The position numbers and the translations under genes are program-made. Shown here piece after piece: positions 14,593-59,733 of a stretch of DNA of 64,000 nucleotides; position 1 is the first letter of the stretch; each line of letters starts with the position of its first letter. The notes beneath the pieces are model-generated. The model was not told where the DNA came from. It made no database searches and was given only the letters and a program-made list of their open reading frames with translations. Source of the DNA: Microcaldota archaeon (GTDB lineage: Archaea > Micrarchaeota > Micrarchaeia > Anstonellales > JAGGVH01); NCBI GenBank assembly GCA_020854835.1, contig JAHKLX010000015.1, positions 62,001 to 126,000 of the forward strand, in the 5' to 3' direction.

Positions 14593-14712
14593 AGCGGGGG
14601 GAGGGAATTGAACCCCCCTCTGCCGGTTTCTTCAATTTGGAGCTTTTTCATCAGTTGATGCGCTTTCCGTCTGCTTCTGCAGCCAGCCGCATAACCGATC
14701 TGCCACCCCCGC
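14593..14712 (-). tRNA. tRNA-Cys (GCA) with intron at 37/38
   Basis: The minus strand folds as a complete cloverleaf: acceptor GCGGGGG/CCCCCGC, anticodon stem GCTGG/CCGGC, loop CTGCAGA with anticodon GCA, T-arm GGGGG-TTCAATT-CCCTC and discriminator U73, the identity base for Cys. A 49-nt intron (14628-14676) interrupts the anticodon loop after position 37 and ends in TTGAAGAA, as in the Leu and Glu introns. The spliced length is 71 nt with no encoded CCA. A TATA-like element near 14741 places transcription start just before the 5' end. Confidence 0.95.
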
Positions 14713-18477: not shown

Positions 18478-18646
18478 TGTGGGGAGTGAGATTTATCCAA
18501 CATCCATTTTGGGTGTCTTCTTCCAAAAAGGATGTATTGAACTCACGCAGGCCTAAGCCACTGGGTTTCTTCAAAACTAATTTTTTTAAAATTGTTTTAA
18601 GTTTTGCCTAAGCCCAGCGCGTTTGACCAAGCTCCGCCATCCCCAC
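18478..18646 (-). tRNA. tRNA-Leu (TAG) with two introns, one in the T-loop
   Basis: The minus strand gives acceptor GTGGGGA/TCCCCAC, anticodon stem CTGGG/CCCAG with loop CTTAGGA (anticodon UAG), a long variable arm typical of Leu, and T-stem GTGAG/CTCAC; A73 follows. The first intron (18567-18606, 40 nt) is after position 37, has a CAAAAC/GTTTTG stem and ends GAAGAA. A second intron (18493-18536, 44 nt) splits the T-loop between TTCAA and AT. Removing both leaves 85 nt, the normal tRNA-Leu length. No CCA is encoded. Confidence 0.93.
18493..18536 (-). other. T-loop intron of tRNA-Leu
   Basis: A 44-nt insert between T-loop residues 58 and 59 (the exact register is ambiguous by one or two A/T). 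It forms a stem of CATCC with GGATG and TTTTGG with CCAAAA. It closely resembles the insert at the same place in tRNA-Ala. Confidence 0.85.
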
Positions 18647-18673
18647 ATTTATAATTTAGTCTTATCCGATTAT

Positions 18674-18681
18674 TTTTAAAA
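18674..18681. promoter_or_regulatory. Palindromic TATA between tRNA-Leu and a lipoprotein gene
   Basis: TTTTAAAA is centred 31 bp from the tRNA-Leu 5' end and 34 bp from the ATG at 18712. These distances would give a short tRNA leader on one side and a short SD-containing leader on the other. Confidence 0.5.
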
Positions 18682-18711
18682 GTTTAGCTTTGTAACTATT
18701 TAGGTGATATT

Positions 18712-19212
18712 ATGAGAAAATGGATGATTCTGGCAGTTTTTGCAATATTTTTATTTAATTTTGGGTGTATAGAAGGTTTTTTAGACGACGAAGTTGAAAG
18801 AAGATTTGGGGATCAAGACACACCACCTATTGTTACTAATCAAACAAACCAAACTGAAGATACACCAGAACCTGTAATCATTCCTCCTATCGAAGAAGAA
18901 GAACCAGAAGTTCCCTACCTGCCTCCTGAAAAAGATGTTTTTGAATGTCTTCCAGAATATGAGGATTTGTATATAATCGATAAATATGATCCACATTATT
19001 GTATAACAAACACTGCTGTTGCAACACAAAATATTACAATATGTGAATATATACCTTTAGAAGATGAAGAAAGTTTGAGAAGATGTATCCGCGTTGTTGC
19101 ATCAACACATAATTTTGGTGCACCAAAATGTCAGGAATTTCTTCACAGACCAGAAAGTATTCAAATGTGTAAAACATTTGTAATCAGCGGACATAAATAT
19201 GGGTCTTATTAG
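18712..19212 (+). CDS. Small Cys-rich lipoprotein
   Basis: A 166-aa secreted lipoprotein. The signal peptide ends in a lipobox-like NFGC with Cys19. A Pro/Glu/Thr-rich linker (about residues 35-75) precedes a globular C-terminal region with seven Cys residues, which could form disulfides outside the cell. An AGGTGAT SD precedes the ATG. A 54-aa membrane protein gene follows with its SD overlapping this stop. Similar Cys-rich lipoproteins recur at 28717-29802 and 35582-36292. Function is unknown. Confidence 0.7.
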   Translation: MRKWMILAVFAIFLFNFGCIEGFLDDEVERRFGDQDTPPIVTNQTNQTEDTPEPVIIPPIEEEEPEVPYLPPEKDVFECLPEYEDLYIIDKYDPHYCITNTAVATQNITICEYIPLEDEESLRRCIRVVASTHNFGAPKCQEFLHRPESIQMCKTFVISGHKYGSY

Positions 19213-19221
19213 GTGAACTAA

Positions 19222-19386
19222 TTGGATTATAATTTGTGTTCAATTATTTATTTTTTTATAATCACAGTGTTCATACTGCAATTTTTTAATTCAATAACTA
19301 AAACCGTAATTAAAGTTGGAGACACAATTATAAATTTATTTTCTCCAAAAGAAAAAAACCCCAAAACGAAAAAGGTGAAAAAGTGA
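19222..19386 (+). CDS. 54-aa single-TM membrane protein
   Basis: An open frame of 54 codons from a TTG start. AGGTGA lies 5 nt upstream, inside the end of the lipoprotein gene, and the TGA stop overlaps the GTG start of ubiA (GTGA). The product has a short N-terminus, one hydrophobic helix (about residues 7-22, IIYFFIITVFILQFF) and a Lys-rich C-terminal tail. Placement between two coupled genes and the SD argue that it is translated. TTG initiation is the weak point. Function is unknown. Confidence 0.6.
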   Translation: MDYNLCSIIYFFIITVFILQFFNSITKTVIKVGDTIINLFSPKEKNPKTKKVKK

Positions 19387-20234
19387 ATATAAAAGCTATC
19401 CCAAAACTGATCAGATTTGAACATGGATTGATGTTGTCATTAGCAGTTTTGATATCTATCTTTCTAACTGTTTCGGAAATAAACTGGGGAAATAAGGTAT
19501 ATATTCTTTTAGCTTTACCTTTTTTAATTGAAGCAGGAGCGTTTGCTTTGAATGATTTTTTTGATGTTGAAACAGATACAATAAATAGAAAAAATAGACC
19601 TATTGTTAAAGGTGAAATATCCAAGGAATCCGCGTTTATAATCGGTTCAGGATCTCTTTTCATAGCAATAATTCTTTCTTTATTGACAGAAAATTTATTG
19701 ATAATAAATTTGACAGGTTTTTTTGCGTTTTTTTCTGTTTTATATAATTGGAAATTAAAAGATATGCCCTTAATGGGCAATATTTATATTGGCTTCAGCA
19801 TGGCAATTCCTTTTCTTTTTGGTAATCTCGCGTTTTCAAATTCCATAGTTCCAGAAAATTTCATCTTGTTTTCAATGGCATTTATAGTTGGCGTATCGCG
19901 CGAGATTATAAAAACTGTTGAAGATTACAAGGGTGATAGAAAAGCACGAGGGTCAAAAACTTTGCCTTTTTACATTGGAGAAAAAAAATCACTTATGTTT
20001 GCGGGGAGTTTAATAGGTGTTTTTATACTGCTCGGGATTTATTCTTTTACTATGTTAAAATTCTCTATTTTCTCAGGGTTGTTATGGTTAGCCGCACTAA
20101 TGTATTATATGTACTTATGTTTCAGCATAATTTATACCAAAGAAACCCTGAATTTCAAATCAATCAAAAGATACACATTGATAACCATGTTTTTAGGTTT
20201 AATTGCTGTTCTGCTAACTAAATTTTCGATATAA
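19383..20234 (+). CDS. UbiA prenyltransferase, probable digeranylgeranylglyceryl phosphate synthase
   Basis: A 283-aa polytopic enzyme with about eight membrane helices. The first Asp-rich motif NDFFDVETDTINRKNRP lies near residue 57 and the second, DYKGDRKARGSKTLP, near residue 181. This pattern fits archaeal DGGGP synthase, which attaches the second geranylgeranyl chain in ether-lipid synthesis. CarS at 32063 catalyses a later step. The GTG start at 19383 has GGTGA 5 nt upstream and overlaps the stop of the 54-aa gene. Another UbiA substrate cannot be excluded. Confidence 0.85.
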   Translation: MNIKAIPKLIRFEHGLMLSLAVLISIFLTVSEINWGNKVYILLALPFLIEAGAFALNDFFDVETDTINRKNRPIVKGEISKESAFIIGSGSLFIAIILSLLTENLLIINLTGFFAFFSVLYNWKLKDMPLMGNIYIGFSMAIPFLFGNLAFSNSIVPENFILFSMAFIVGVSREIIKTVEDYKGDRKARGSKTLPFYIGEKKSLMFAGSLIGVFILLGIYSFTMLKFSIFSGLLWLAALMYYMYLCFSIIYTKETLNFKSIKRYTLITMFLGLIAVLLTKFSI

Positions 20235-20270
20235 ACAACATTTAAATACATTTCCTAACACTATAATTCT

Positions 20271-21497
20271 ATGTCTTTATTCAAACCTCATCCTAAACCA
20301 CCTTTCAAAGTTAGTGTCAAGGATTCCAACAAAGACTTTTTTAGAAGGTTTGATAACGGAGAATTACAAAACAATTTAATGAGAATCATTTCGTGGGAGA
20401 ATATTGAGGGTTTAACTTTTGTTAAAGGCAGGTCAGGTTACATATCTTTACATCCTTTCAGCGAATCAAGTGATGGATTATGTTTACAAATTAAAGGTTT
20501 AGGGGATTTCAATAATCCAAACATAATGAATCTTCCAGGCCATGGCGTTTTTCTAGCTTCAAATTTTCATAATTTAGTTTCTTCTAGAGTCGATGAAAAA
20601 GGTAAAATAATATTTGAGCGATATCCTGCTGAGCCTATGGGTGGTTTAAGAAGCTCAAAAGCACAGAGAGAATATATGATTGCGAAATATGCTTTAGAAA
20701 CTAGATTGCCCACGGAAATTCCTGTGATGTGGGGGGAATATGATGATTTAACTTTCAATGGGGAAAAATTGGCATTTGTTGCTGTTTTAAAACCAAGTTC
20801 TCATGATTTTAGGGTTGATGATATATTATTAGTTAAAGAAGATTTGAAAAATGGAACAATAATTTTATCATCCTTACTTACTGAAAAATTAAATGTTGAA
20901 GAAGGAAAGTTTGTAGAATCTTACAAATATCTTAATTGGTTCAGTTCGCTTGTATTTGATTTAGGAAAAAGCCTTAGAGAGTTTCACAACAATGGTGTGT
21001 ACCATTTACAATGCAACCCTAACAATACGTATTGCCCTGCCAATTTACCGCTGCACATCTATGATTTGGACGGTTGTTTTCTTGGAAACGAATTAAACAC
21101 CCAACAAAGAATAACTTATCAACTTATTGATTTAGTTAATGGTTTAAGTGGAATTTCACAATCCATTATCATCTCTTTTCCTTTTCTATACCAAACACTT
21201 GAAAATAACAGATTACGAACAAACCCTTATATTTCTTTTTTGAAAGGTTATTTTGGTCCCAAATATTTCAAAAAAATCAAAGGGTCTGTTCCAGTAAATG
21301 ATTTTGTAAAGCTATGTTCTGTTCGGTTTCCTCAAATCATTGAAGAAGCCATAGATTCTTTTGATTCTTTCAAAAGTTTTTTTGATATTCTTATTACCGA
21401 GTCAAATATTCTTGGTTACAAATTTTCAGAAATAATAGAACAAATGAACCAAAAAATTGTCAAAATAAAAGTTCCGAATTTTGAAGCAAGGGCATAA
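20271..21497 (+). CDS. Protein-kinase-like protein with altered catalytic loop
   Basis: A 408-aa soluble protein. The segment LREFHNNGVYHLQCNPNN near residues 234-251, followed by LHIYDLDG near 260-267, has the order of a kinase catalytic loop (HxDxxxxN) and metal-binding DFG-like motif (DLD). The catalytic Asp position holds Gln while the Asn is kept. An upstream VAVLKPSSHD stretch near residue 166 could hold the ATP-binding Lys. A TATA-like ATTTAAAT precedes the start with no SD, suggesting leaderless expression. Function is unknown. Confidence 0.6.
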   Translation: MSLFKPHPKPPFKVSVKDSNKDFFRRFDNGELQNNLMRIISWENIEGLTFVKGRSGYISLHPFSESSDGLCLQIKGLGDFNNPNIMNLPGHGVFLASNFHNLVSSRVDEKGKIIFERYPAEPMGGLRSSKAQREYMIAKYALETRLPTEIPVMWGEYDDLTFNGEKLAFVAVLKPSSHDFRVDDILLVKEDLKNGTIILSSLLTEKLNVEEGKFVESYKYLNWFSSLVFDLGKSLREFHNNGVYHLQCNPNNTYCPANLPLHIYDLDGCFLGNELNTQQRITYQLIDLVNGLSGISQSIIISFPFLYQTLENNRLRTNPYISFLKGYFGPKYFKKIKGSVPVNDFVKLCSVRFPQIIEEAIDSFDSFKSFFDILITESNILGYKFSEIIEQMNQKIVKIKVPNFEARA

Positions 21498-21546
21498 GTT
21501 TTTAATAATAATCAAATTTAATAATTTACTTTAATGGTGATTTAAT

Positions 21547-23937
21547 ATGTTAGGTAAAAGATATGATATTGAAATTGAAAAAAAATGGCAAGAAGAATGG
21601 GAAAATCATAATGTTTACAAATTTGATAAAGACAACAAAACCAAACCTATTTTTTCTATAGATACTCCCCCTCCTTTTACATCTGGGAAATTACATATGG
21701 GGCATGTTTTAAGTTATTCTTATTTTGATTTTGTGGCCAGATACAAAAGAATGAAAGGGTATAATGTTTTTTATCCGCAAGGATGGGATTGTCAAGGCTT
21801 TCCAACTGAAGTCAGGGTAGAAGAAAAATACAAAATTCAAGGATCTAATGATCCTGCTAAATTTGTAGAACTTTGCAAAGAATGGTCCGAAAAAATGATA
21901 GTTTTGATGAGACAACAAATGAAAGAGATGGGATTTTCTCCAGATTGGTCTTATGAATACAAAACAATAGATCCTGAGTTTCATAAAACTGTTCAATATT
22001 CTCTTTTAACCATGTACAAAAACGGGCAAGTTTACAATGCGGAGCACCCTGTTTATTGGTGCACAGATTGTGTTTCTGCAATAGCGAAATCTGAAACAGA
22101 AGATATTGAAAGAGATACAAAATTATATCATATAAAATTTTTAGCAGGTGTTGATGAGGGGCATATTCCTATTGCAACCACAAGACCTGAATATTTACAT
22201 GCCTGTGTTGCAGTTATGGTTCATCCTGAAGATGAAAGGTACACTCATTTAGTTGGAAAAGAAATTAAAACTCCTCTCGGAAAACCAGTTAAGATAATTG
22301 CAGACAAAGATGTTGATAAGGAATTTGGTACGGGTATTGTAATGGTGTGCACATTCGGGGACAAACAAGATGTTGTTTGGTCCTATCGTCATCTACTCCC
22401 TATTGTAAAAGCTTTGGATGAACAAGGAAAACTAATAAACTCGGATTTTGATGGTTTAAAAGTTGGTGAAGCAAAACAAAAAATTATTGAAAAATTAAAA
22501 CAAGAGGGAAATTTGATCAAAGTTGAAACATTAAAACAGGTTGTTAAAGTACATGACAGGTGTAAACATCCAATCGAGCTTCTTCAGTCCAGACAGTGGT
22601 TTATAAAAACAAAAGATCAGAGGAGAGATATAGTAAATGCTGCAAAGCAAATAAAATGGTATCCTGAATTTGGAATTACTTACTTAGAAAACTGGGCAGA
22701 GTTCATTGAATGGGATTGGGTTATCTCAAGAAACAGAACTTATGGAACGCCCATTCCTTTTTGGTTCTGTGAAACTTGCAATAAATGGCATCCTGCGTCC
22801 GAAGAGGATCTTCCTGTTGATCCAAGAATTCAGAAAAAGAAATGTCCGAGTTGCAATGCTGATATGCAAGGTGAACAAACAGTTTTAGATGTGTGGGTTG
22901 ATTCTTCTATCACTCCTTTATACATTGCAGGATGGCCCAAAAACTTAAATAAAAATCTTTATCCTGTGGATTTAAGACCGCAGGGTGTTGAGATAGTTAG
23001 GACATGGGCTTATTACACAATTGCGAGATGTTTGGCATTGTCAGATCAGATTCCATTTAAAGAAGTTTTACTTAACGGCAACGTATTGGCCCCAGATGGG
23101 AAGAAAATGAGTAAAAGTACTGGCAATGTAATTGAGCCGACACAAATTTTGCAAGATTATTCTACAGATTCGATCAGACAATGGGCTGCCATGAGTGGTG
23201 CAATGGCAAAAGATAGAGCTTTCAATTATCAAGATATGAAATTTGCAAAAGGTTTTCTTACCAAGGTTTGGAATACTGCCAGATTTATTGAAATGCATAT
23301 AAAAGATTATGAATATGATGATACACACACAGAATATTTAAAATCTGTTGATAGATGGGTGCTTTCAGAACTCCATTCTTTGGTTAATGGAGTTACAGAG
23401 CATATGGATAAATACGAATTTCATCACGCCATTAAAAAAATCCAAGAGTTTACATGGCATATTTTATGTGATTATTATTTAGAATTAGTTAAATACAGAC
23501 TTTATGGCGACGATGAAAAATCAAAACAAGCAGCTAGATATGTTTTGTTCAACGTTTTGTTGAATGTCTCAAAACTTTTAGCACCCTTTACTCCACATAT
23601 ATCTGAGGAGATGTACCAAATATTTTATCCTGCAACTGATAATTTTGTAGTTAAATCTGACTGGCCTATTGCATATGCAGAATGGTATTCTCCCAAAGAT
23701 TTGAAAAAAGGCGAGTATATAATTCAAATAATGAACAAAATAAATGAATGGAAAGCGCAAAACAATCTTTCTATGAAAGCAGAAGTTCCAAAGTTGATAT
23801 TAAAAATCGGCAAAAACAAATTAGGATTGCAGATGAATATTGATGATATACTTGAGGACATACAACAAACAGGTCATGTTCAAAAAATAATCAAAGAGCC
23901 TACTGATTCTGAGGGAATAGAGGTTGAGATAAAATGA
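21547..23937 (+). CDS. valS: Valyl-tRNA synthetase
   Basis: A 796-aa class I synthetase. The HIGH-type motif reads HMGH near residue 51 and the KMSKS loop reads KKMSKSTGNVIEP near 519. The CP1 editing domain is recognisable by ATTRPEYLHACVA near residue 214. Zn-knuckle Cys pairs lie near 411 and 437. The anticodon domain follows the KMSKS loop. It is somewhat shorter than many archaeal ValRS proteins and has only a short C-terminal extension. GGTGAT precedes the ATG. The stop overlaps dph2. Confidence 0.95.
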   Translation: MLGKRYDIEIEKKWQEEWENHNVYKFDKDNKTKPIFSIDTPPPFTSGKLHMGHVLSYSYFDFVARYKRMKGYNVFYPQGWDCQGFPTEVRVEEKYKIQGSNDPAKFVELCKEWSEKMIVLMRQQMKEMGFSPDWSYEYKTIDPEFHKTVQYSLLTMYKNGQVYNAEHPVYWCTDCVSAIAKSETEDIERDTKLYHIKFLAGVDEGHIPIATTRPEYLHACVAVMVHPEDERYTHLVGKEIKTPLGKPVKIIADKDVDKEFGTGIVMVCTFGDKQDVVWSYRHLLPIVKALDEQGKLINSDFDGLKVGEAKQKIIEKLKQEGNLIKVETLKQVVKVHDRCKHPIELLQSRQWFIKTKDQRRDIVNAAKQIKWYPEFGITYLENWAEFIEWDWVISRNRTYGTPIPFWFCETCNKWHPASEEDLPVDPRIQKKKCPSCNADMQGEQTVLDVWVDSSITPLYIAGWPKNLNKNLYPVDLRPQGVEIVRTWAYYTIARCLALSDQIPFKEVLLNGNVLAPDGKKMSKSTGNVIEPTQILQDYSTDSIRQWAAMSGAMAKDRAFNYQDMKFAKGFLTKVWNTARFIEMHIKDYEYDDTHTEYLKSVDRWVLSELHSLVNGVTEHMDKYEFHHAIKKIQEFTWHILCDYYLELVKYRLYGDDEKSKQAARYVLFNVLLNVSKLLAPFTPHISEEMYQIFYPATDNFVVKSDWPIAYAEWYSPKDLKKGEYIIQIMNKINEWKAQNNLSMKAEVPKLILKIGKNKLGLQMNIDDILEDIQQTGHVQKIIKEPTDSEGIEVEIK

Positions 23938-24866
23938 AAATTCTTCTTCAATTCCCGGAAGGACTAAAACAACAGGCATTGAAATTTGTTGAGAAATACG
24001 AAAGCCAGGGCCATACCATTTATCTGTCGTCTTCCCGTTCGTTTGGTGGATGTGATGTTGCTTTTGAAGAAGCAGATTCTATAGGCGCTGAAAAAATAGT
24101 TCATTTTGGCCACTGTAAATTTCCAATTCATTCATTTTTTCAAAAACGGTTTTCAAATATCAAAGTCGAATATATTGAATATGAAGTTCCTATAAAAGAT
24201 GAATTTTTAATTGAGATTGTAAAATATGCTGAGGAAAAAAAATTCAAGAAAGTTGGTTTAATCTTAACAGTCCAACACATTTGTATTTTGGATTCACTAA
24301 TCAAAAAATTATCTGAAAAAGAAATCGAAGTTTTTGTTGGCAAAGGAGCAAAAACTGTTTATCCTGGCCAGGTTTTAGGGTGCGACACATCATCAATTCT
24401 CTCATTTATTGATAAAGTTGATTCAATAATTTTTATTGGAGGGGGAAGATTTCACTATCTTGCCATTCACAAAAACTTAGAACCCTACAAAGTTCCAATT
24501 GTTTCAGCCAATCCCTATACACTAGAAATAAAAGAAATCAATGAAGAAATAGGGCAATACGTCAAACAAAGAAAAGGTTTAATTGCACAGGCATCAGAAG
24601 CAGAAACTTTCGGGATAATTGTTTCCACACGGGCAGGTCAGTTTGCTATTGAAACTGCTGAGTCAATAAAGAAAAAGCTTAATGAAAAAGGCAAAAATGC
24701 AGAGATTCTTGTTTCAAGAACTGTTGATGCAGAGGCTTTACAGGATTTCAATTTATTTGATGCATATATCAATACCTCATGCCCTCGTTTAGCAGATGAT
24801 TGGAAAACAATTGGGAAGCCAGTTGTGAATAGTAATGAGATAGAAATCTTGTTTTCATTTTTGTGA
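23934..24866 (+). CDS. dph2: Diphthamide synthase subunit Dph2
   Basis: A 310-aa enzyme of the first step in diphthamide formation on elongation factor 2, transferring the aminocarboxypropyl group of SAM. Three conserved Cys that bind the noncanonical [4Fe-4S] cluster are visible: SFGGCDVA near residue 40, VLGCDTSS near 150 and NTSCPRLADDW near 282. Length matches the archaeal homodimeric form. It overlaps valS by 4 bp (ATGA). Confidence 0.93.
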   Translation: MKILLQFPEGLKQQALKFVEKYESQGHTIYLSSSRSFGGCDVAFEEADSIGAEKIVHFGHCKFPIHSFFQKRFSNIKVEYIEYEVPIKDEFLIEIVKYAEEKKFKKVGLILTVQHICILDSLIKKLSEKEIEVFVGKGAKTVYPGQVLGCDTSSILSFIDKVDSIIFIGGGRFHYLAIHKNLEPYKVPIVSANPYTLEIKEINEEIGQYVKQRKGLIAQASEAETFGIIVSTRAGQFAIETAESIKKKLNEKGKNAEILVSRTVDAEALQDFNLFDAYINTSCPRLADDWKTIGKPVVNSNEIEILFSFL

Positions 24867-24903
24867 TGGAAAATATTATAAATATCAGTATCTTAATAAA
24901 ATT

Positions 24904-25884
24904 ATGATAATACCTCCAAAATTAAAAAAAGGAAATAGAATAACAGTCGTTTCTCCTTCAAGAAGTTTATCAATAGTTTCTCAAGAGGTTAGAGATATTG
25001 CCATAAAAAGATTATTGGATATGGATCTCACTGTGGGTTATTCTAAAAATGCAGAGGAATCGGATGAATTTAATTCCTCCTCAATTAAATCTAGAGTTGA
25101 GGATATTCACGAAGCTTTTTCAGATCCGCTGGTTGGAGGAATTTTAACAACATTAGGAGGTTTTAATTCCAACCAAATATTGAAATATTTGGATTATGAC
25201 TTAATAAAATCTCACCCGAAAATATTGTGCGGATATTCAGATATCACAGCATTACAAAATGCAATCTACGCAAAAACAGGGTTAGTTTCCTATTATGGTC
25301 CTCATTTTTCTACTTTTGGAATGCAAAAAGGAATTGAATACACTCTTGAATATTTTCAAAAGTGTTTAATGAATGAAGATCCTTTTGAAATTCATCCCTC
25401 AAAAGAATGGAGTGATGATGAATGGTATATAGATCAAGAAAACAGAACCTTTTTTCCAAATCAAGGGTACAATATTTTAAATGAAGGAGAAGCAGAAGGA
25501 ATAATAATTGGTGGAAATATCGGAACATTAAATCTTTTGCAAGGTACGGAGTTTATGCCGAGTTTAAAAAATGCAATTTTGTTTTTGGAGGATGATTCAG
25601 AATCACTTATCCACCATTTTGATAGAGATTTACAATCTTTGATTCATCTACCTGATTTATCAGAGGTTAGGGGGATTGTTATCGGACGTTTTCAAAGAGC
25701 TTCTGAAATTTCAAATGAAATGCTGCTTAAAACCATAAAAACAAAAAAAGAATTGAATAGTATTCCAATTATTTGCGGGGCAGATTTTGGACATACAACT
25801 CCTCAAATAACTTTTCCAATCGGCGGAAAGGTTAAAATTGAAGCAAAGGGATCCAAGATAAAAATAGAAATTCCAGAGTATTAA
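24904..25884 (+). CDS. S66 family peptidase (LD-carboxypeptidase/MccF-like)
   Basis: A 326-aa serine peptidase of the S66 family. The nucleophile Ser is in CGYSDITAL near residue 111, the catalytic Glu in LFLEDDSES near 228, and the His in GADFGHTTPQITFPIGG near 297. Bacterial members cleave tetrapeptides of peptidoglycan (LdcA) or detoxify microcin C (MccF). An archaeon without murein more likely uses it for MccF-like aminoacyl-nucleotide or peptide hydrolysis; that is inference. It is leaderless, with a TATA element about 26 bp before the ATG. Confidence 0.88.
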   Translation: MIIPPKLKKGNRITVVSPSRSLSIVSQEVRDIAIKRLLDMDLTVGYSKNAEESDEFNSSSIKSRVEDIHEAFSDPLVGGILTTLGGFNSNQILKYLDYDLIKSHPKILCGYSDITALQNAIYAKTGLVSYYGPHFSTFGMQKGIEYTLEYFQKCLMNEDPFEIHPSKEWSDDEWYIDQENRTFFPNQGYNILNEGEAEGIIIGGNIGTLNLLQGTEFMPSLKNAILFLEDDSESLIHHFDRDLQSLIHLPDLSEVRGIVIGRFQRASEISNEMLLKTIKTKKELNSIPIICGADFGHTTPQITFPIGGKVKIEAKGSKIKIEIPEY

Positions 25885-25925
25885 ACTGAGCAAACTATTT
25901 TAACTTTTAATATCTAATTAGTGCT

Positions 25926-27725
25926 ATGCAGTTTCCTTTTAAGAAAATTAGACCTGGCCAGAAACAATTTTATGAAGATGCTTTAAGGTCAATAGATCAA
26001 AAAAAAGTTCTTCTTTCTTATGCGCCCACAGGTATTGGTAAAACTGCGGCAGTTCTTGGGGCGGCAGTGAAAAAACAGCTTGAAGATAGAGACGGACTTG
26101 TTTTTTTTCTCACCTCACGACACTCACAACATTCGATTGCTGTCGAGACTTTAAAAAAAATACAGGAAGCTAACGATGTAGAAATTAATGTTGTAGATAT
26201 TGTAAACAAAAAAGATATGTGCCCTTTGGGTGCAGATATGGGCAGAATGGAATTTGAATCTTATTGTTATTCAATGAAACGACAAGGCACCTGCAAATAT
26301 GGTAGAGTTAATCCTTTGGCAGTTGCTACTCTGGAAAGAGAAGTTTTTCATGTTGAAGAAGCCGTAGACATATCTAAAAAATTTGGTTCCTGCCCCTATT
26401 TCACTGCTTTATCAAGACTTAAAACTGCAGATGTTGTTATATGTGATTACTCTTATATTTTTGATCCACAAATACGTTCGGTTATAGTGGGCAAAGCAAT
26501 GAAATCATTAGAGGATTTTATTGTTATCGTTGATGAAGCACACAATCTTCCTTTGAGGGTTAGAGAGTATGGGACTTATTCTTTAACAACTGGTTTGCTT
26601 GGAGCATCAAAAAAACTTGCTAAAGAAATTTTAAGAGACAAACTTTTAGCAAACCAAATAAATGTTCTTATGAAAACATTGAAAACAGATAAGGAATCTG
26701 AAATTACCAAAAGTGAGGTTTTGACATGGATCGATGAAGCTTTTTATGATCAGTTTATCGGAGATGTCACTTATTCGACCTTTCTTTCTTGCACTGAAAC
26801 TGCGGCAGAGCGTTTGAGAGAGCTGACCAATGATCCCCTTCCAAATGTTTTAGACTCAGTTTCATCTTTTTTCAAGATATGGAATGAAAATCTCCAAGAT
26901 TATGTCAGGATAATGGATTCTGATGGAATACACATGGTCCCTTTAAACGTTGCATTAATCAGCTCAGAAGTTTTTGATAAAGCACGTTCAACTATTTTAA
27001 TGAGTGCGACATTATATCCCCAGGAAATGTATGCGAATATCTTGGGGATTGAAAATCCAATAATAAAATCTTATGATTCGCCCTTTCCAGAATCCAATAG
27101 ATTGGTTGTTTCTACCGAAGGACTTTCTTCTGCATACAAAAATAGAGGGCCAGAAATGTTTAGGCTTTATGCAAAAAAAATAGATGAATTAAGTAAAGAA
27201 GTCCCAGGAAATGTTGCAGTATTTTTTCCATCATATGATTTAATGAATTCCATACTTGAACATTTGAATACAAAAAGAAAAATAATTGTGGAAACTTCAG
27301 ATTGGAAAAAAGAAAAAAAATCAAGTATATTAAAAATAGCAAAAGAAAAAGAGAATATTTTGTTTTGTTTTGTACAGGGGGCTTCATTTTTTGAAGGGGT
27401 GGATTTCAAAAACAATTCGTTGAAATCTATTATAATTGCAGGTCTTCCAATTTCCCCTCCCTCTGTAATAAACCAGCGACTTCTCGATTTTTACGATTAC
27501 AAATTCGGCAAAGGATATGAGTACGTTTATCTTTTACCTGCTTTCAACAAAGTTCTACAATCCGCAGGTAGGGGAATAAGGAGTCCTACAGATATATGTT
27601 CAATACTTCTTTTGGATTCCAGATTCAATTATCTGAATTATAAAAAATTCATACCCAATTGGAAAATAAAAAAGTCAGCAATTCCCTTATCTCTCATTAA
27701 GGATTTCTATGGGGGAAGAAAATAG
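25926..27725 (+). CDS. XPD/Rad3-DinG family FeS helicase
   Basis: A 599-aa SF2 5'-3' DNA helicase. Walker A reads APTGIGKT near residue 36, and the DEAH box (VIVDEAHNL) lies near 201. Four Cys between them (near residues 98, 115, 122 and 157) are the XPD iron-sulfur ligands. C-terminal motifs are ATLYP near 365, GASFFEGVDF near 485 and QSAGRGIRSP near 544. Archaeal XPD acts in nucleotide excision or bubble repair. No nuclease partner such as Bax1 is adjacent. tRNA-Glu follows directly on the other strand. Confidence 0.9.
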   Translation: MQFPFKKIRPGQKQFYEDALRSIDQKKVLLSYAPTGIGKTAAVLGAAVKKQLEDRDGLVFFLTSRHSQHSIAVETLKKIQEANDVEINVVDIVNKKDMCPLGADMGRMEFESYCYSMKRQGTCKYGRVNPLAVATLEREVFHVEEAVDISKKFGSCPYFTALSRLKTADVVICDYSYIFDPQIRSVIVGKAMKSLEDFIVIVDEAHNLPLRVREYGTYSLTTGLLGASKKLAKEILRDKLLANQINVLMKTLKTDKESEITKSEVLTWIDEAFYDQFIGDVTYSTFLSCTETAAERLRELTNDPLPNVLDSVSSFFKIWNENLQDYVRIMDSDGIHMVPLNVALISSEVFDKARSTILMSATLYPQEMYANILGIENPIIKSYDSPFPESNRLVVSTEGLSSAYKNRGPEMFRLYAKKIDELSKEVPGNVAVFFPSYDLMNSILEHLNTKRKIIVETSDWKKEKKSSILKIAKEKENILFCFVQGASFFEGVDFKNNSLKSIIIAGLPISPPSVINQRLLDFYDYKFGKGYEYVYLLPAFNKVLQSAGRGIRSPTDICSILLLDSRFNYLNYKKFIPNWKIKKSAIPLSLIKDFYGGRK

Positions 27726-27832
27726 TGCTCCGGCCGGGATTCGAACCCGGGTCGCCAGGGTTCTTCAAATTTCTGCATAAAGCAAAAAATTTTGAGAGCC
27801 TGGCATCCTTGACCGGACTAGACGACCGGAGC
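27726..27832 (-). tRNA. tRNA-Glu (CTC) with intron at 37/38
   Basis: Acceptor GCTCCGG/CCGGAGC, anticodon stem CCAGG/CCTGG with loop CTCTCAC (anticodon CUC), and a perfect T-arm CCCGG-TTCGAAT-CCCGG. The 32-nt intron (27761-27792) follows A37, pairs AAATTT at both ends and ends TTTGAAGAA. The spliced length with the discriminator is 75 nt. A TATA-like TTTAAAAATT near 27865 is suitably placed. Confidence 0.96.
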
Positions 27833-27870
27833 TAAATAGATAGACATAGATGTTATGTAAAGTTTAAAAA

Positions 27871-28665
27871 TTATTGTGCTGTTTCCAATTCCAAATTCTT
27901 TTCTTTTTCTTGTAATCTTTTCACATAAAACCTTGGAAATAATATTTCTTTAATGGTTGGTACTTCAACAGCCTTTTCCATTGTTGTTTTCAAATCTTTG
28001 TAATGTTTGTTGACTTTCTTCAACAATCTTTTTCCTAAACTATAAGGTAAAATCTTCAAACTGAATGGTACTATAAAAAGCGTTGAAATTATCAAAGCCT
28101 TTTTGATATCATGGAACTGCATATTGTTAAATGGATAAAGCCATGCTGCTGTACATCCTAAGATACAACCATGTATTGATTGAAGGCTATCAGCTAAAAA
28201 AGAATACAATGCGTTTTTTTCTGATCTAGTTTGCATAATTTTTGACCTACCCTCCGTAATTGTCGCATGACGAAACCTTTCTTTAGTCAAGTGTAGACGG
28301 TTTTTTATTTCTCTGTTTTTCCTATCTACCCATTTCATTATATTATTATTTTCGTCATGATCCATCGCATGAGTTATTTCGTGTATAACAATTCCGTTAT
28401 AGGAACCGGATTTTTTCATAAGAGAATACACTTCCAAAACTGTTGTGTCCAATATTATTATTTCAGAAGATGGGCAATATTTTCCAACTACGCCAAAGGT
28501 TTTAATGAAAAAGTTATCTCTAATTTCCATCTTTAGGTCTTCAGGCAATGGTTTTCCAAATGTATCTTCAATAAATCTTGTTTCATCTGGATACTTTCTC
28601 CTAATTCCTTCTACATCTAAATTTTCAATTTTTGGTTTAATTCTAAAACTAAATTTCCCACCCAT
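27871..28665 (-). CDS. HExxH metallopeptidase-like membrane protein
   Basis: A 264-aa protein. Residues 93-97 form HEITH in the context GIVIHEITHAMDHDEN, a classical zinc-peptidase helix. A membrane hairpin follows (about residues 165-205, two hydrophobic segments), then a charged C-terminus ending LQEKEKNLELE. The catalytic part would precede the membrane anchor. No known peptidase family is recognised beyond the motif. It is leaderless, with TTTATAAA about 27 bp before the ATG. Substrate and sidedness are unknown. Confidence 0.65.
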   Translation of the reverse strand: MGGKFSFRIKPKIENLDVEGIRRKYPDETRFIEDTFGKPLPEDLKMEIRDNFFIKTFGVVGKYCPSSEIIILDTTVLEVYSLMKKSGSYNGIVIHEITHAMDHDENNNIMKWVDRKNREIKNRLHLTKERFRHATITEGRSKIMQTRSEKNALYSFLADSLQSIHGCILGCTAAWLYPFNNMQFHDIKKALIISTLFIVPFSLKILPYSLGKRLLKKVNKHYKDLKTTMEKAVEVPTIKEILFPRFYVKRLQEKEKNLELETAQ

Positions 28666-28716
28666 ACTATTATTATGTGTGAAAAGATTTATAAATGCGT
28701 TTAATAAGATAGACGT

Positions 28717-29802
28717 TTAATCTACAATATTCATCCTATATTTCTGAACTAGCGATTGCCATTTTTCATAATCCTCTTGAGTCAGAAAACCTCCAGAGGC
28801 ATTTCCAATTTCATTTATTCTTTTCCATTCTTCAACATCATAATACTCTTCTGAAACGCTTTCAAATGAATAACCATCGCTTACATAAATTATAATTGGT
28901 TCTGACCATAATTTTCCAGCACCTTCATACTCTCCACTTGAGTCTGTAATTATGGATGGAAGAGTTGATTCAATAAAACAATATTCCATCCCCTTATAAC
29001 CATATTTTTTCGGGCATTTAATTCCTACTGACATATGGTTTTCAGGTCCATATTCAAACAAAACAACTCCATATCCTAATTCTCTAATGATATATGCAAG
29101 AAGTTTTGATTTTTCTCCGCAGACACCTTTATTATCATAAATAACTTCATAAGGGTATCTAAGGGCTTGGTAATCTTCATTTTCTAAAAGTTCATAATCA
29201 TAAGGTATACTCTGAACAAATGAAACAGCTATTCTTATCTGATCGTCTTTATCATCAGTTTTGTTTTCTATTTTTTTTACAATCTCATTTAATCGACCAA
29301 CTGATTCTTCTTCATCAATAAAACTAAGCGTTATTTCTTCATCTGTGGGGCAAACATCATTTATACAAATATAGGTTCTAGGTAAACTAACTAAATAATC
29401 TTTTAATTCTGGACTCGTTTCGATTGTAATATAATCCTCTTCCCCTCTTAAATTATACCAATACAATCTGCCTTCTTCAGTGTGTTGATATTTTTCAATG
29501 CAGTTTAATTTATCTTTGCTTAAGGCTTTTCCTTTAGGACATCCACAATCAATAGGGGAGTAAATCAATGTTCCGTTTAAACATAAATACGAAACATTTA
29601 CAAGCGAGCAGTAACCTGACAATGTGCCTTCTTCACAAAATATAATTTGATTTGTAAGCATTTCATCATCTTCATAATTTGTAGTAATATTATATTCATA
29701 GTCAAAATGCAAACTATCGTTTGGATAAGTTGTTAAACAACAACATCCGCTAAAAAAAATAATAATTACGGCTATGCAAGTCATAAAAAATATTTTACTC
29801 AT
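28717..29802 (-). CDS. Transglutaminase-like lipoprotein
   Basis: A 361-aa secreted protein with a signal peptide ending at lipobox Cys20. The C-terminal half contains a transglutaminase-type triad: Cys in NKGVCGEKSKLLAYI near residue 227, His in GPENHMSVGIK near 255 and an acidic residue in CFIEST near 275. The N-terminal half is Cys-rich (about residues 50-105), suggesting disulfides. Archaeal extracellular transglutaminase-like domains often act as peptidases or cross-linkers. It starts behind a TATA element near 29826. Confidence 0.8.
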   Translation of the reverse strand: MSKIFFMTCIAVIIIFFSGCCCLTTYPNDSLHFDYEYNITTNYEDDEMLTNQIIFCEEGTLSGYCSLVNVSYLCLNGTLIYSPIDCGCPKGKALSKDKLNCIEKYQHTEEGRLYWYNLRGEEDYITIETSPELKDYLVSLPRTYICINDVCPTDEEITLSFIDEEESVGRLNEIVKKIENKTDDKDDQIRIAVSFVQSIPYDYELLENEDYQALRYPYEVIYDNKGVCGEKSKLLAYIIRELGYGVVLFEYGPENHMSVGIKCPKKYGYKGMEYCFIESTLPSIITDSSGEYEGAGKLWSEPIIIYVSDGYSFESVSEEYYDVEEWKRINEIGNASGGFLTQEDYEKWQSLVQKYRMNIVD

Positions 29803-29859
29803 GCTTTTAACAGTGTTTAATACTTTTATAAACTTAACTTTGGAGGGGTAAAGAAATTA

Positions 29860-30025
29860 TGGACCTGGGGGGATTTGTTCTCATTCCTTTTGGGGTACAG
29901 ACCTTTTTCCAAAAGGGATGCATTGAACCCCCGGCCTCCTGCTTTTTTGGTTTCTCAGTGCAGGTTCTTTGTGAAACAAAGAAAGTGCTTGCAAAGCAGG
30001 CGCGCTACCACTGCGCCACAGGCCC
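29860..30025 (-). tRNA. tRNA-Ala (TGC) with two introns, one in the T-loop
   Basis: Acceptor GGGCCTG/CAGGTCC contains the G3:U70 identity pair of tRNA-Ala. The anticodon stem is CCTGC/GCAGG with loop TTTGCAA (anticodon UGC), and the T-stem is GGGGG/CCCCC. The first intron (29944-29989, 46 nt) follows position 37 and forms a CTTTG/CAAAG hairpin. The second (29875-29922, 48 nt) splits the T-loop between TTCAA and AT, like that of tRNA-Leu. Spliced length is 72 nt. It lies 9 bp downstream of the LSm gene on the same strand. Confidence 0.94.
29875..29922 (-). other. T-loop intron of tRNA-Ala
   Basis: A 48-nt insert at the same T-loop site as in tRNA-Leu. The stem CATCCCTTTTGG pairs with CCAAAAGGAATG with one mismatch. 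The opening block (CATCC, then TTTTGG) and the closing CCAAAA are shared with the Leu insert. Confidence 0.85.
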
Positions 30026-59621: not shown

Positions 59622-59733
59622 TGGGACCGCCGAGATTTGAACTCAGATCACCAGCTTTTTCACAGTTTCCCAACATGCTTTAAAGAGAAATTGTCCCGAA
59701 GCTGGTATGATGACCAGGTTACACTACGGCCCC
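59622..59733 (-). tRNA. tRNA-Pro (CGG) with intron at 37/38
   Basis: Acceptor GGGGCCG/CGGTCCC (one G:U), anticodon stem CCAGC/GCTGG with loop TTCGGGA (anticodon CGG), T-arm CTGAG-TTCAAAT-CTCGG and A73. The 38-nt intron (59657-59694) follows position 37, with ACAATTTC pairing to GAAACTGT around a CTTTAAAG segment. TTTTTAAAA near 59763 fits a tRNA promoter. Confidence 0.95.

Follow-up and report, generated by a model that had tools for sequence, protein, structure and literature searches.

T-loop introns in two tRNA genes

The window analyzed here is a 64,000-nt stretch of an archaeal genome (contig C6, positions 62001-126000; genome G000 in our numbering), of which the assembly has 2.04 Mb in 145 contigs and is 87.1% complete and 5.6% contaminated. 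Two tRNA genes on its minus strand, tRNA-Leu(UAG) and tRNA-Ala(UGC), are each interrupted twice. The tRNA-Leu(UAG) gene lies at 18478-18646, with the discriminator base at 18478, and contains a 44-nt insert in the T-loop (18493-18536) as well as a canonical 37/38 intron of 40 nt (18567-18606). The tRNA-Ala(UGC) gene lies at 29860-30025, with the discriminator base at 29860, and contains a 48-nt T-loop insert (29875-29922) and a canonical 37/38 intron of 46 nt (29944-29989), reported by ARAGORN as i(37,46). In both genes the T-loop reads TTCAA, insert, AT, which makes 58/59 the most likely insertion site. The first-pass annotation, made from the sequence alone, had described the 44- and 48-nt inserts at this common site, and its coordinates were correct to the base; the ordinary 37/38 introns were absent from it.

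When ARAGORN was run on the whole window, it called tRNA-Asp and tRNA-Thr only. In the cut-out genes it found nothing in the precursor form and nothing when the 37/38 intron alone was removed. Taking out the T-loop insert was enough for both genes to be called, as tRNA-Leu and tRNA-Ala(tgc), which bears out the earlier claim that excision restores the tRNAs. Rfam at its gathering threshold also missed both genes (26.1 bits for Ala against a cut-off of 29). It follows that Micrarchaeota genomes, to which this one is assigned below, look poorer in tRNAs than they are, since ARAGORN and Rfam miss tRNAs with a T-loop intron.

Relatedness and copying of the T-loop introns

The Leu and Ala inserts share the opening T(A/G)CATCC(T/C)TTTTGGAA(G/A)AAG, which is identical at 17 of 20 positions, and 34 of 42 aligned bases are identical in the best global alignment. 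This score was equalled by 1 of 20,000 dinucleotide-preserving shuffles, and the pair ranked at the top of 147 pairwise comparisons among T-loop inserts of this genome and its relatives in the order (z 7.6; mean 1.2). Judged by alignment, the two are copies of one element and not unrelated inserts, as the first-pass annotation had proposed. A genome-wide search with the opening pattern detected only these two copies; a third match (on C17, with three mismatches) was outside any tRNA. The Ala insert has a further homologue in G009, a genome of another family, where the tRNA-Ala(UGC) gene carries a T-loop intron that is likewise 48 nt long (2 of 20,000 shuffles). Of the window pair, the copy in Ala(UGC) is probably the older one, since its homologue occupies the same gene in another family. 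In the tree of the splicing endonuclease EndA, f1 and f9, the families that share the Ala intron, are not clearly sisters, so that this intron may be either old with losses or transferred. The Leu(UAG) gene of G001, a genome of the same genus, has a normal 7-nt T-loop. The Leu(UAG) copy was thus probably gained in this species, after the split from G001 and with the Ala gene or its relative as the source; the alternative is a loss in G001.

A search of the other tRNAs, which the first-pass annotation had called for, revealed that the window pair is not isolated. T-loop introns were also found in the genes for Ala(GGC) (contig C5, L114), Ser(GCU) (C31, L158), Leu(CAG) (C5, L159), elongator Met (C6, L160), Trp (C10, L194), and Ser(GGA) (C30, L200), which gives at least eight in this genome with the window pair included; the tRNA census was built from searches and is a lower bound. 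Among the relatives, T-loop inserts are present in many Leu and Ala genes, chiefly in families f5, f9, and f11. In G001, a homologous T-loop intron that ends in GCCTAAAAAT and is inserted at 56/57 is present in nine tRNAs. Their anticodon arms, inspected visually, identify these as Ala(UGC), Ala(GGC), Glu(CUC), Glu(UUC), Trp, two Arg, Lys(UUU), and Lys(CUU). The copies are identical at 65 of 65 positions between Ala(UGC) and Lys(CUU), at 43 of 43 between Glu(CUC) and Trp, and at 87-88 of 91 among Trp, Lys(UUU), and one Arg. Likewise, one T-loop intron of G009 is common to Leu(CAA), Ser(GCU), and a tRNA reading CGC (66/66 and 63/66 identical). The T-stems beside these shared introns differ from tRNA to tRNA, which indicates that the moved unit is the intron. 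Same-site spread across tRNA identities, suggested earlier from the window pair, is thus seen again in nine tRNAs for five amino acids in G001 and in three tRNAs in G009. These comparisons give good support to a multiplication of T-loop introns within the order, with copies passing from one tRNA gene to another.

The mode of this spread is a separate question, and both of the following routes are compatible with introns that are spliced. We give slightly less than an even chance to spread by gene conversion or recombination at the DNA level instead of reverse splicing. The introns of the G001 Ala(UGC) and Ala(GGC) genes differ at 1 of 96 positions and the flanking exon bases are common to both genes, and some elements are found outside introns, in intergenic regions or in tandem after a tRNA 3' end; both observations are in favor of a DNA route. 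On the other hand, the T-stems adjoining the intron differ between Leu and Ala (GTGAG/CTCAC versus GGGGG/CCCCC), which leaves a few bases of exon homology on each side, and the Lys, Arg, Trp, and Glu copies of G001 keep their own T-stems. DNA conversion is plausible for the Ala pair of G001 and less so for tRNAs with differing T-stems. It is also possible that the spread took an RNA route, by reverse splicing or otherwise.

It may also be considered that the likeness of the Leu and Ala introns arose by convergence, with a shared splice site and enzyme imposing a similar hairpin on both. Unrelated T-loop inserts of the order do score slightly above shuffles (mean z 1.2), and the likeness lies partly in the helix arms. 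However, the Leu and Ala pair came first of 147, the match at 17 of the 5' 20 nt includes bases without exon pairing, and the inserts of relatives that are identical at 65/65 and 66/66 positions across different tRNAs are beyond convergence. This explanation is disfavored by these tests and is improbable in our judgment.

Splicing signal

In its strict form, the bulge-helix-bulge (BHB) motif consists of a 4-bp helix between two 3-nt bulges. We used a register in which both cuts lie two bases past the central helix. In the RNA fold of the Leu T-arm, the T-stem is followed by 4 bp that the T-loop forms with the intron's end, by a small bulge on the 5' side, and by an intron hairpin with the inner helix ACAUCC/GGAUGU. 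The tRNA segment G53UUC56 pairs with GGAU in Leu(UAG), GAAC in Ala(UGC), GAAU in Ala(GGC), GAAC in Ser(GCU), and GAAU in Leu(CAG), whereas in tRNA-Met the central helix is UUCA/UGAA and the site is 59/60. The central helix was thus complete (4/4) in all six T-loop introns tested in this genome, five of them with GUUC/GRAY at 58/59. The BHB scores of 26 inserts from the order were above those of shuffles (combined p 1e-8), and the Leu(UAG) insert alone gave a p of 0.008. In family f5, several Ala inserts failed the test (p 0.5-0.9); either their register is different or their pairing is looser.

We consider it highly probable that the inserts are noncanonical BHB-type archaeal tRNA introns that are spliced, that those of Leu and Ala are two copies of a single element, and that such introns multiply between tRNA genes. 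In the precursor, G53-U54-U55-C56 of the T-arm would pair with the GRAY sequence close to the intron's end, and this pairing would leave A57-A58 ahead of the 5' cut and AA ahead of the 3' cut. An EndA of the epsilon2 type, in which the ARMAN-specific loop (ASL) allows relaxed motifs, would make both cuts at 58/59, after which the exons would be joined by RtcB into a normal UUCAAAU T-loop.

Several observations weigh against this interpretation. The first-pass annotation had expected a BHB at the junctions of these non-anticodon introns; the 4-bp central helix is present in both genes, but the strict form is not. The 3' bulge has 5 nt in this register instead of 3, and the inner helix is shifted by one base in Leu and is weak in Ala, which has a 4x1 internal loop beside the bulge in place of a perfect inner helix. 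The Ala(UGC) insert taken alone gave a BHB p of 0.10, and the T-loop intron of Ser(GGA) pairs weakly. In addition, the completeness of 87% and the contamination of 5.6% leave room for an uninterrupted second copy of either tRNA. As modeled here, the Leu and Ala junctions are relaxed and not strict BHB motifs. A group I intron was rejected as an identity for the inserts, since it needs a catalytic core far longer than 50 nt, whereas the inserts have 44 and 48 nt and the region has no Rfam intron match.

That the two genes are instead decayed pseudogenes from which the insertion is never removed would agree with the failure of standard tRNA finders to call either gene, but this is very improbable and disfavored by our tests, because the stems are intact, no other gene for Leu(UAG) or Ala(UGC) was found in the genome, T-loop introns are also present in other essential tRNAs (Trp, elongator Met, Ser), and the pairing between insert and exon is retained.

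Splicing enzymes and host

The genome encodes an EndA of 419 aa on contig C5. Its best PDB match was the ARMAN-2 EndA (4FZ2, 9W2K), over nearly the full length and with 339 bits, the next structure scoring 79. The alignment showed that equivalents of the catalytic residues Y236, H251, and K282 and of the ASL residue K161, as named in PMC6379350, are all present, and the motif W-x-G-Q-x-x-x-Y-K around the ASL lysine is retained in nearly all EndAs examined in the order. RtcB is also encoded in the genome (572 bits). The endonuclease type, which the first-pass annotation had left to be checked, is by these signatures the broad-specificity epsilon2 type, with the Y/H/K triad and the ASL lysine retained. 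According to the account in PMC6379350, introns with a relaxed BHB are efficiently removed only by (alpha-beta)2 and epsilon2 enzymes, and the type of this EndA thus fits the introns. These data are best read as excision by the epsilon2 EndA followed by exon joining through RtcB. The homology of the inserts, the restored tRNAs, the potential for pairing, the enzyme type, and the repeated copies in relatives are shown by the sequences; splicing itself, the exact cut sites, and the direction of copying we infer.

No T-loop intron was present in the few genes seen of family f8. The lack of a full epsilon2 EndA was considered as the cause of families without T-loop introns but is not claimed here, since the f8 EndA is shorter and divergent but largely keeps the ASL motif.

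The relatives of this EndA among named genomes all belong to Candidatus Micrarchaeota (AUK095 at 70% and three others at 48-49%). Judged by EndA, the host organism is a member of Micrarchaeota and not an ordinary euryarchaeote, and together with the ARMAN-2 match this corrects the earlier description of the introns as lying beside euryarchaeal-type genes. The EndA of the same-genus genome G001 is identical to that of AUK095 (395/395). In G001 the Leu(UAG) and Ala(UGC) genes likewise share a contig and a strand, at a distance of 7.8 kb (11.4 kb in the window); this colocation supports placing contig C6 in the genus of the EndA contig. Bacterial-looking tRNAs, several with an encoded CCA, were observed on contigs C2, C35, C113, C131, and C137 (perhaps also C124) of G000, which indicates that the bin is contaminated, in line with its own figure of 5.6%.

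Elements recurring at different intron sites

The canonical intron of tRNA-Ala(UGC) contains AAAGAACCTGCACTGAGAAA (29951-29970, minus strand), a copy with one mismatch of the dispersed element AAAGAACCTGCACTAAGAAA; the chance expectation for such a match in the window is 0.03. The element has the form ACTTTCTTT-hairpin-AAAGAACCTGCACTAAGAAA (several families) and was located at 29944-29989 in the window, at G000:C10:91820, and at L212, L217, L222, L223, and L226-L235. Its sites include canonical introns of several tRNAs, T-loop introns of Pro in G009 and of Leu and Ser in G001, and a probable 23S rRNA intron of G001 (L235). Tandem copies are found behind a tRNA-Leu of G020, and there are intergenic copies too. 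A second element, AAGAAGTTTCATCAAGAAA, of the form GAAACTTCTTT-AAAGAAGTTTCATCAAGAAA, occurs in introns at the 37/38 site of Val and two Gly tRNAs as well as in the Trp T-loop intron, all in the genome studied here (G000:C5:49108, C10:104958, C10:107274, and C10:55526; L266, L274, L279, and L282). The Trp T-loop intron is identical to these Val and two Gly introns at 37/43, 33/36, and 33/38 positions. This element is also found at rRNA-like loci of other genomes (L261, L270). Some intron elements are thus found both at 37/38 and in the T-loop and, apparently, in rRNA.

A more far-reaching proposal is that the tRNA introns of Micrarchaeales behave as minimal transposons at the RNA level: the order would harbor families of small, mobile BHB introns able to insert exact copies of themselves into the T-loop, and also into the anticodon loop and rRNA, with the epsilon2 endonuclease and RtcB acting in reverse. 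We regard this proposal as tentative and on balance unlikely.

Some further features of the tRNA genes were observed. Other window tRNAs with canonical introns are Cys(GCA) (14593-14712), Glu(CUC) (27726-27832), and Pro(CGG) (59622-59733), which default ARAGORN misses. The Lys tRNAs of AUK095 (G001 L251, L257) seem to carry three introns each, in the D-loop, at 37/38, and in the T-loop. L010 (G000:C17:100634-100744) is an intron-bearing tRNA that reads Ile(UAU) and not the usual archaeal Ile(CAU). Downstream of some tRNA genes in relatives (L049, L074, L077, L128), the tRNA 3' end is repeated, a pattern such as serial integration at that end would leave.

Relation to known systems

In Thermoproteales, noncanonical introns are described as occurring several per gene and as very similar across tRNAs at both canonical and noncanonical sites, and transposed tRNA introns were reported there (Sugahara 2008 and Fujishima 2010, as reviewed in PMC4033280 and PMC4090602). 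The present case is similar in that homologous introns occupy different tRNA identities of one genome, as in the window pair, G001, and G009, and in that the same element occupies different tRNA positions, as in the Trp T-loop and the Val and Gly 37/38 sites. It differs in the phylum, in the endonuclease, which is (alpha-beta)2 there and epsilon2 here, and in the T-loop (56/57 to 59/60) as a recurrent noncanonical site in the genes examined.

ARMAN-1 and ARMAN-2 are described as having an epsilon2 EndA able to cut noncanonical introns and are listed among the archaea with several introns per tRNA (PMC4033280, PMC6379350). They share with the present genome the wider lineage, the endonuclease type, and the noncanonical positions (Fujishima 2011 and Hirata 2012, via PMC4033280, PMC6379350, and PMC12397907), whereas homologous same-site copies across tRNA identities, seen here, are a difference from these organisms as the citing literature describes them. 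In the Asgard Atabeyarchaeia and Freyarchaeia, most tRNAs are reported to be interrupted, often at noncanonical positions (PMC11291895); the hosts there are Asgard archaea, and that account, as far as it was available, does not describe copying from gene to gene. The first-pass annotation had stated that non-anticodon introns are known mainly from Thermoproteales. They are indeed known there, but the taxonomic surprise is smaller than it implied, since the Micrarchaeota lineage was already known for epsilon2 enzymes and for multiple or noncanonical introns (PMC4033280, PMC6379350).

The phenomenon itself is thus known from Thermoproteales, while its extensive same-site proliferation in the T-loop in Micrarchaeota looks new, although part of it may be on record for ARMAN-2. 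Known examples of tRNA introns gained by copying come mainly from a single hyperthermophilic order. A case in DPANN archaea that is independent and apparently recent, with an endonuclease of a different type, would support the idea that relaxed enzyme specificity lets introns spread, and the near-identical copies inside single genomes make the route of copying testable.

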